Shown one piece after another: positions 3,539-6,473 of a DNA stretch of 64,000 bases. This DNA is from Dictyoglomus turgidum DSM 6724 (lineage in GTDB: Bacteria; Dictyoglomota; Dictyoglomia; Dictyoglomales; Dictyoglomaceae). The stretch spans positions 94,723 through 158,722 of the forward strand of contig NC_011661.1 of assembly GCF_000021645.1 (NCBI RefSeq), read 5' to 3'. The notes under the pieces were generated by a model. It saw nothing but the letters and a program-made list of their open reading frames with translations. It was not told where the DNA came from and made no database searches. Position numbers and translations under genes: made by a program. The first letter of the stretch is position 1; each line of letters begins with the position of its first letter.

Positions 3539-5200
3539 TTAAAATACTATATGATAAACTGTTTGGGGTGGTACTTTTAACTCAAAATAGTTATTTTGAA
3601 TATTGTTTAATTCTCCCATCTTTCTTATCTCAGGAGATTGGTAATCAAATCCATAGATTATACAAGAGGTATAAGTATTATTCCCTTCAATCTTTATTCT
3701 GGCAATACCCTCCTTGTCCCAATTCCTGTTAATTAATATTACATGTAATTTTCCTTGATTATCACTATGAATAGAAGCATATACAGGCATATTCTCCACA
3801 TCAGAAGTCTCTGCTTTAACAGATATATCTCCATATTTAGATCCTTTTCCATCATAATTTAAATAAACATTATAAGCAGAAGAAATATAACTTCCTGTCT
3901 CACCCCACCTGGTAGCAAGATAAACTCCATACTTCCCAAATATGCCAAGCACATCTACTTGAGCAATTCCACCCGATATATGATTTCTACCACCATAATC
4001 ATATTCTGTTATGGCAAGCTTTGTGCCAGGATAATAAGTATCAATAGCCTGCTTTAATTTAGGAATTATAGGTAAAAACTCAGGAAACCATTGATTTATC
4101 CAGCTGTTCTCTCCAGCAGTGATCTGACCCTTTGTAGTTGTTTTATAAGTTAGATCCCAAAGAGTTCTTGGAGCTTGCATTCTTGCAATACTCGTATCCT
4201 TATCAATACTATTTTCCCCATCAAAGCAAATTCTTACACCTGTAGAAGATTTTGCCTCAGGATACCAATGAAGAGAAAGCACATCAAGAAGCCTCTTACC
4301 ATAAGAGTCTGATGCTTCTTTCATCCTTTGTAGGTAATAGCTTATAAACCACTCATGACTTCCTTTTACACTATTCCAATCAGGAGCATCTTGAAGAGAA
4401 TAGTATCCCATAAATCCATAGGATTCATATCCAAAGACTAAAGCACTAGGATCCATCTCTTTTATAACCTTTGCAAGTTCAATAGATTTTGATATAAGTT
4501 CATTACAAGTTACTTTATTGGGATGTATTCTTGGATGAGTACTTGACCAAAGATCCGGCTCATTATCAAGAAGATATCCTTTTATTCCTGTAGAAGTATC
4601 AGCTTTCCCATATTTGCTAATTAGATAATTCAAAAGTTCATCAATATAAACATAATTATCAGAGGTATCAGGATTTAAAGAAAAACCTACTCCCTTTCTA
4701 AATTTTACTTCAGCCCATCTTGAAGATGGAGCAGTTTCATCTTCTGAAACAGCCCCATTAGCATCTTTTGCCACATAGCCTGCCATTTGGAGGGTTACCA
4801 AACTAATAGCACCCATACTGAGAGACTGATCATGAAATTTTGTAAGCACAATTGCAGGAACATTATACTGATCTTGAGGTATTCCCATAACCCAAGGTAA
4901 ATAGTAATCACTGGAATGATCCCAGTCAGATCCTGCATTAGACATATTGGTTTCCCAATTGTATCCTGTAAGTCTATTTCCTCCAATTCTTCTTGCAGTA
5001 TGTTTTACCCCTTCCACATCTTGGTTTGCCCCATAAATATAGGGACTTATGGGAGTTCTATCCTGATCAGGATTCACAGTAATATTTACTGTAAATTCAC
5101 CTGTTGGCGTAATAACACCTCCCTGAGATGATTCTTTCACACACCCCGATGTAAAAAAAACTAGGAATAGAATTAAAAGAAAAAGTTTGAAGCCTTTCAA
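3539..5200 (-). CDS. Glycoside hydrolase family 44 endoglucanase/xyloglucanase, lipoprotein
   Basis: This secreted, probably lipid-anchored glucanase acts on beta-1,4-glucan or xyloglucan. The GH44 hallmarks are GGNRLTGYNWETN near the N-terminus, the acid/base Glu in LDNEPDLW (about residue 214) and the nucleophile Glu in ITEYDYGG (about residue 399). The signal peptide ends in lipobox TSGC (Cys about 20). I place the start at the TTG at 5200 instead of the ATG at 5230. A strong AGGGAGG ribosome site lies between the two, and a TATAAA -10 box sits so close to the ATG that transcription would begin near it. The C-terminal 100 residues form the beta-sandwich usual in this family. It stands alone, with no cellulosomal or CBM module. 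Confidence 0.9.
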   Translation of the reverse strand: MKGFKLFLLILFLVFFTSGCVKESSQGGVITPTGEFTVNITVNPDQDRTPISPYIYGANQDVEGVKHTARRIGGNRLTGYNWETNMSNAGSDWDHSSDYYLPWVMGIPQDQYNVPAIVLTKFHDQSLSMGAISLVTLQMAGYVAKDANGAVSEDETAPSSRWAEVKFRKGVGFSLNPDTSDNYVYIDELLNYLISKYGKADTSTGIKGYLLDNEPDLWSSTHPRIHPNKVTCNELISKSIELAKVIKEMDPSALVFGYESYGFMGYYSLQDAPDWNSVKGSHEWFISYYLQRMKEASDSYGKRLLDVLSLHWYPEAKSSTGVRICFDGENSIDKDTSIARMQAPRTLWDLTYKTTTKGQITAGENSWINQWFPEFLPIIPKLKQAIDTYYPGTKLAITEYDYGGRNHISGGIAQVDVLGIFGKYGVYLATRWGETGSYISSAYNVYLNYDGKGSKYGDISVKAETSDVENMPVYASIHSDNQGKLHVILINRNWDKEGIARIKIEGNNTYTSCIIYGFDYQSPEIRKMGELNNIQNNYFELKVPPQTVYHIVF

Positions 5201-5333
5201 AAAAAGTCCCTCCCTTCTAAAATTCTTCATATATTTTATACCTATTGGCAGGAGTTTTAAAAGAGTTAAAAAGGATTTAAAAATTTTTTCTAGGAAAAGA
5301 GAGGAGCCAAAAGAGTTTTGATTTGAAAATAAA

Positions 5334-5570
5334 GTGCCACAGGCTCAACAGATCCTACTTGGAAACTCCCCTGTACCCTCTCACCTTTCAGCCTCAGGAT
5401 TTTTCAGATTTCGTAGGAGTACCAGGTTTCTCCAACACCCCTACTACTCTCTAAACCCTAAGTACTCAGTAAGGAGTCTTGCTCCTCCACTTTTCCCCAG
5501 CTACCCAAGACTTTACTCAGTGCCAAGGTACATCAGGAGTACCTTTTGGACCCCTTGACGCCTGTGGCAA
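5334..5570 (-). ncRNA. Candidate structured non-coding RNA, unidentified class
   Basis: This is a GC-rich 237-nt island in AT-rich DNA. The ends pair perfectly: TGCCACAGGC (5335-5344) with GCCTGTGGCA (5560-5569). The stem continues for 4 bp past a single bulged G (UCAA with UUGA), then 5 bp (GGUCC with GGAUC). Inside are an AAGGTAC/GTACCTT hairpin (5525-5545), a 12-bp stem with a 2-nt bulge (5468-5481 with 5506-5517), and GTAGGAGT with ACCCCTAC (5413-5420 with 5437-5444). A strong promoter on the minus strand points at the 5' end, and U-rich CUUUAUUUUC follows the closing stem. By eye I see no hallmarks of RNase P, tmRNA, SRP or 6S RNA. Reading frames through it are short and lack ribosome sites. 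It could instead be a leader of the GH44 gene 134 bp downstream. Confidence 0.72.
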
Positions 5571-5575
5571 TTATA

Positions 5576-5603
5576 ATTTTAACATAATTTTAAAAATTGT
5601 CAA
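5576..5603 (-). promoter_or_regulatory. Promoter of the candidate ncRNA
   Basis: On the minus strand a perfect TTGACA (5598-5603) is followed after 16 bases by TAAAAT (5576-5581). The predicted start, about seven bases downstream, falls at 5569-5570, exactly at the first paired base of the ncRNA closing stem. Confidence 0.75.
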
Positions 5604-6076: not shown

Positions 6077-6473
6077 TTAGTTTTCTCTTTTCAAGAGTTT
6101 TTCAAAAACTTCATCAAAAATTTTAGGAAGGTAACTCTCTAATACTTTAACTCCTTCTTCAGTTATTCCACCCTTTGTAGCAACCTTTTATATTATATCT
6201 TCAAAAGTCAAGTTCATATTATAGATTAACTTTGCAGTAATATGTATAAATTAGTATATCTTTTACCTCGTGCATGAGTTCATTAAAAATAGAAGCCAAA
6301 AAACCTGGTGCACAACTTTTTATTTCCACCGCAAAAGGAAAATCTTCTTCCCTATTCTCTATGGTTATTGCTCCTGCAAGAGATATAACAGGATAAATTT
6401 CTTTTAATTCTAAAAGTTTACTTTTTGACCTTGTAGAAACAATTATTTCCTCAAATTTATCCTTACTTAACAA
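6077..6473 (-). pseudogene. proC: Remnant of pyrroline-5-carboxylate reductase (proC)
   Basis: Two ProC-like blocks survive. The 6219-6473 part reads EEIIVSTRS (the strand after the Rossmann glycine motif), then jumps directly to VISLAGAITIE, losing roughly 60-100 residues. After a frame break, 6077-6185 reads VATKGGITEEGVKVLE and ends FDEVFEKLL, the typical ProC C-terminus. The N-terminal NAD(P)-binding GxGxxG segment is absent. The gene cannot make an active enzyme. The identification rests on recall of the family's conserved C-terminal GGxTxEG motif. Confidence 0.75.

Follow-up and report, generated by a model that had tools for sequence, protein, structure and literature searches.

Dictyoglomi-1 (RF01703), for which an earlier report used the name dct-1, appeared in a 2010 paper as a probable RNA for which the questions "cis-regulatory?" and "riboswitch?" were both left ambiguous, and a literature search returned no study of Dictyoglomi-1 or RF01703 after the 2010 report and no expression data. 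The standard sarcin-ricin module, to which the internal loops of this RNA are compared below, combines a 5x4 internal loop of signature NAGUA/GAAN with a bulged G that is conserved (PMC8450098); RNase A is reported there to cut such constructs at the U of AGUA. In the window, which is the whole 64,000-nucleotide stretch of Dictyoglomus turgidum DSM 6724 DNA that was analysed, an Rfam covariance search matched positions 5569-5335 of the minus strand to RF01703 with a score of 229.2 bits and an E value of 2e-52 over model positions 1-236 of 236, where membership in the family was taken to be a score of at least 150 bits (the gathering score) over the full length. The block is a copy of Dictyoglomi-1, an already-known RNA family, and not a new RNA class. 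The first-pass annotation, made from the letters of the sequence, had proposed a candidate new structured RNA and had itself suggested the Rfam search, naming a match to a known class as the outcome that would remove novelty; the search produced a full-length match, and the word "new" has to be withdrawn. What is added to RF01703 here is the placement of a promoter and a T-rich tract within the conserved unit, more genomes, a 181-nt form in one genome (G004) and a set of AGUA/GAA modules. CRISPR-type RNAs were rejected, in the block because a match to RF01363 scores far under its cut-off, and near G006 because a single RF01315 match stands without a surrounding repeat array. The features of the locus, which is copy A of the window genome (G000), are as follows, in window positions.

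5335..5569, minus strand: Dictyoglomi-1 RNA (RF01703), full length, about 235 nt (229.2 bits, model positions 1-236)
5548..5569, minus strand: basal helix, 5' strand, nt 1-22, nearly invariant (16 of 19 pairs never vary)
5335..5355, minus strand: basal helix, 3' strand, nt 215-235 (the same 16 of 19 invariant pairs)
5512..5519, minus strand: junction-trunk loop GAGUAA, sarcin-ricin-like, with partner strand GAAA at 5390-5385, drawn as 6x4
5458..5500, minus strand: arm 1 (nt 70-112), which contains the sarcin-ricin-like 4x5 loop GAAA/GAGUA
5403..5455, minus strand: arm 2 (nt 115-167), which contains the sarcin-ricin-like 5x4 loop GAGUA/GAAA; missing in the short G004 form
5598..5603, minus strand: -35 box TTGACA, kept in non-syntenic copies of the Dictyoglomus genus and TTGATT in G004
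5576..5581, minus strand: -10 box TAAAAT with TG just before it (promoter scan and comparison of copies)
5326..5334, minus strand: T-rich tract CTTTATTTT, a presumed weak terminator, directly 3' of the closing helix
5599..5608, minus strand: ACCCCTTGAC, 10 nt at copy A, complementary to RNA nt 11-20 (pairing with 5559-5550) and overlapping the -35 box

Fold, covariation and internal loops

The block stands out by GC content as first described, with 0.45-0.48 versus about 0.20-0.30 in the adjoining intergenic DNA. Its minimum free energy is -104.8 kcal/mol (z = -7.5 versus 200 dinucleotide shuffles, 0/200 as stable), and folding of the opposite strand is much weaker (-66.1 versus -104.1). The reported pairing of its ends was recovered as a closing helix of 10 bp, a single bulged base at nt 11, 4 bp, a G.G mismatch and 6 pairs with a central tandem G.U. 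The interior, described in the first-pass annotation as three strong stems, is indeed strongly paired, but it forms one long interrupted trunk that leads through a three-way junction to two arms (nt 70-112 and nt 115-167) and not a set of separate stems. The comparative analysis that had been recommended found, in eight sequences, 19 pairs with double changes versus 9.0 +/- 1.9 in shuffles; slid controls never exceeded 4, and 97.6% of cells are paired. The two-arm junction and conserved closing helix by which membership in RF01703 can be recognised are both present, with covariation. The closing helix itself contains no double change because it hardly varies, and the strict retention of its sequence while the arms vary, one of them being lost in G004, suggests that this helix is recognised. 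The longest unpaired run is 6 nt, and the unpaired bases (36 A, 24 G, 9 U and 2 C) are almost all purines.

The loops of the window copy are GAGUAA/GAAA in the trunk, GAAA/GAGUA in arm 1 and GAGUA/GAAA in arm 2, and both B copies, as well as copy A of the other finished genome (G002), have a further loop at the trunk base in which GAA faces AGUA. The number of AGUA/GAA internal loops is three or four in G000A, G000B and G001 versus 0.03-0.04 in shuffles, of which 0/300 reach the observed count; it is two in G006 and one in the G004a copy, and the same count finds none in the 6S RNA of the window genome. The 5x4 loop of arm 1 is present in 8/8 full-length copies and that of arm 2 in most of them, with small differences of folding or bases in G002A, G002B and G001. 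The main text of the 2010 paper makes no mention of these AGUA/GAA loops. From their size and signature, we infer that they adopt the three-dimensional sarcin-ricin module.

Copies, promoter and neighbouring genes

The window genome has two full copies, at G000:C1:100057-100291 (copy A) and 520396-520631 (copy B), and the other finished genome also has two. All seven genomes of the Dictyoglomus family have at least one copy, identified by a 17-nt conserved 5' end, and usually two; a G003 copy that is truncated at the end of a contig is included in this count. In 379 other genomes, the conserved 5' end was never found together with its 3' partner, and 53 genomes outside the family were negative with a model built here, with which weak matches may be lost. 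In viral contigs, six exact 17-nt matches (0/6 with the 3' partner strand) were taken as chance, as were four one-mismatch matches in distant genomes, likewise without the 3' partner strand. Synteny between two species holds for copy A and likewise for copy B, and as paralogues they are about 70-77% identical; with ~30% of positions different, they could have diverged in role. The short form of G004 (181 nt; L020:9402-9582 on the minus strand and L021:264-444 on the plus strand) has a simpler interior without the second arm, the same basal helix and the promoter TTGATT-16-TATAAT; it scores 61-62 bits, under the Rfam gathering score, and the two G004 copies are identical at 177/181 positions. 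In G005, identity between the two copies, L018:1-233 and L019:5284-5516, reaches 99.6%, in contrast to the divergence of A from B in G000 and G002, and the assembly breaks there. The near-identity of the pairs in G005 and G004 suggests recent duplication or gene conversion.

The promoter noticed on first reading is present on the minus strand as TTGACA, a 16-nt spacer and TAAAAT (11/12 matches), with the first stem base (5569) located 7 nt past the -10 box. The 12 nt immediately 5' of the RNA are identical across copies, G004 excepted. From the -35 box to the start of the RNA, 34/36 positions are identical between G000A and G000B, and beyond the promoter identity falls to background (4/12, 7/12 and 3/24); the same boundary is found when G000 is compared with G001 and G006. 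Among the arguments for a gene over a leader, this limit of conservation carries the most weight. On the 3' side of the RNA, the T-rich tract is the sole common element among copies (CCTTTTTTATT, TCTTTTTTT and TAAATTTTTT in other copies). The U-rich tract that had been reported after the last stem is there, but it is weak in the window copy (CUUUAUUUU), and a scan of this copy found no canonical short-hairpin terminator because the U tract is preceded by no stem other than the helix that closes the entire RNA. The non-syntenic copies in the Dictyoglomus genus share one unit only, the TTGACA-16-TAAAAT promoter with the RNA and the T-rich tract. Transcription would start exactly where the closing helix begins and would stop after the same helix, aided by the succession of a long helix and U residues. 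The extended promoter pattern occurs in the genome only at the two RNA copies, and the idea of a promoter regulon was rejected. Comparison of the copies shows, at the level of sequence, a self-contained putative transcription unit, consisting of a sigma-70-type promoter, an RNA of ~235 nt and a T-rich end, that is kept at unrelated sites; there is good support for the earlier proposal that the block is a structured RNA, independent and equipped with a promoter of its own.

The neighbours of the copies are GH44 (PF12891), an operon of DsrE/DsrH and pyridine-nucleotide-disulphide oxidoreductase (reductase), GH28, DUF362, MarR, a PUA-methyltransferase and a sigma-70-like protein. In the window, GH44 is one ORF of 563 aa (3539-5230). 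It is two ORFs in G002 (L015:7490-9150) and in G004 (L020:10754-12419), which may reflect a frameshift, a sequencing error or a pseudogene. Upstream of the RNA, an 84-aa ORF (window 6219-6473) matches fragments that are divided between two G002 ORFs (L015:10184-10739), and this division suggests that a gene is decaying beside the 132-aa protein.

The first-pass annotation had also considered that the RNA might be a structured 5' leader of the GH44 gene, that is, a cis-regulator or riboswitch, and cis-regulation was left open by the 2010 paper. Copy A and GH44 share a strand, with the RNA ~104 nt ahead of the GH44 start, the arrangement is the same in G002, and the weak T-tract of copy A could permit read-through into GH44. 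However, most other Dictyoglomi-1 copies adjoin genes unrelated to GH44; no Dictyoglomi-1 precedes the related GH44 genes at L011 and L012, with only 18 nt between the preceding ORF and GH44 in L011; and in G004 the split GH44 ORFs are near the RNA but on its 5' side. The position upstream of GH44 is therefore not conserved, and on grounds of synteny a leader was rejected as very unlikely. The retention of promoter, RNA and T-tract among differing neighbours, together with two GH44 loci that lack the RNA, argues for a trans-acting gene, and by way of its weak T-tract copy A may still influence GH44 in cis to some extent.

Other explanations for the block

Two 6S RNAs occur in some bacteria, and Dictyoglomi-1 could be pictured as a second 6S-like RNA that binds RNA polymerase, with its long hairpin-like shape, its own promoter, its copy number of two and the UCAA/UUGA pairs of its basal helix that resemble -35 DNA. 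This is improbable, given that the genome has its own 6S RNA (RF00013, 48 bits, G000:C1:1039815) and that Dictyoglomi-1 has no large central bubble, the largest internal loops of the window copy being 6x4 nt; no RF00013 match was found in the block even at an E value of 10. Genes for 6S RNA, tmRNA, SRP RNA and RNase P RNA were each found elsewhere in the same genome, so the block is not a missing member of any of these classes. The suggestion of a housekeeping RNA fails in that form, and a lineage-specific housekeeping role of Dictyoglomi-1 is possible.

A small mobile or repeated DNA element, as opposed to a functional RNA, would account for two copies per genome in different neighbourhoods and for the near-identical pairs in G005 and G004, but it is distinctly improbable because copies A and B, each in synteny between two species, have diverged without losing the promoter or the covarying helices; about two copies were the most ever found, and no transposase was recognised among the scanned neighbours. 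The opposite strand contains a 74-aa ORF (5334-5558, plus strand) that is open over a considerable length and 78% identical between the two A copies; a coding stretch is very improbable, as the longest stop-free run is only 41 codons in G006, indels shift the frame between copies and RNA covariation explains the sequence conservation, and this candidate was rejected. A CsrB-like sponge that offers repeated GGA sites to CsrA, to which the recurrence of GGA-containing motifs in a structured RNA might point, is ruled out by the absence of CsrA (PF02599) from the genome, with three control genomes positive, and the GGA in the apical loop of arm 2 is not conserved.

Proposed role and comparison with known RNAs

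The reading that we prefer, with a probability of roughly 0.6, is that the block is one of two Dictyoglomi-1 copies, each expressed from its own transcription unit as a stable trans-acting RNA that acts as a rigid protein-binding platform. One or more proteins would bind to this platform, chiefly by recognising its invariant basal helix, and the arms, which vary, would be stiff extensions of the platform. Antisense pairing is probably not the mode of action because no unpaired run exceeds 6 nt and the unpaired bases are mostly purines, many of them in modules of sarcin-ricin type. The conserved helical sequence and the type of module argue with moderate confidence for a rigid RNA that binds protein and serves a function specific to the lineage; the function might instead be catalytic or purely structural.

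A segment complementary to the RNA overlaps the promoter. At copy B in both finished genomes, the 15-nt segment TTTCGGACCCCTTGA, which overlaps the -35 box, is perfectly complementary to RNA nt 12-26. Inverted repeats flank both promoters, of 15 nt at copy B (L013:9352-9366, plus strand, with L013:9408-9422) and of 10 nt at copy A. When 50 nt of upstream sequence are included, the predicted minimum-energy fold of copy B loses the closing helix to the 15-nt pairing, and that of copy A keeps the closing helix once the RNA is complete. The complement over the promoter is absent from G001, G006 and G004, and the GACCCCTTGA 10-mer occurs elsewhere in the genome at the frequency of its control. The copy B segment may ruin transcripts that run in from the upstream operon, or it may be an operator that shares the sequence of the RNA. 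It is a tentative and rather unlikely extension of the preferred reading that Dictyoglomi-1, through its series of sarcin-ricin modules, forms the scaffold of a lineage-specific RNP with a probable housekeeping task, and that in the two finished genomes the promoter-overlapping complement misfolds read-through RNA so that only transcripts from its own promoter are active.

With the preferred reading of a trans-acting RNA, an orphan family of 2010 for which "cis-regulatory?" was left open can be handled as a trans-acting gene whose promoter, start and end are defined, and this makes a northern blot, pull-down and structural work direct. If a protein is bound through the invariant basal helix, Dictyoglomi-1 would be part of a lineage-specific RNP of a deep-branching thermophile.

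In comparison with Dictyoglomi-1 as described (RF01703), the block belongs to the same family, with the same consensus structure and in the same taxon, and nothing sets it outside the family. 6S RNA (RF00013) is likewise a long hairpin-like RNA with interruptions that is made independently from its own promoter, but is defined by a large central bubble like an open promoter that Dictyoglomi-1 does not have. The sarcin-ricin or bulged-G (loop E) modules of rRNA have the same 5x4 loop size and NAGUA/GAAN signature as the loops of Dictyoglomi-1, which differs in packing three or four of them, with a three-dimensional form predicted from sequence, into 235 nt.
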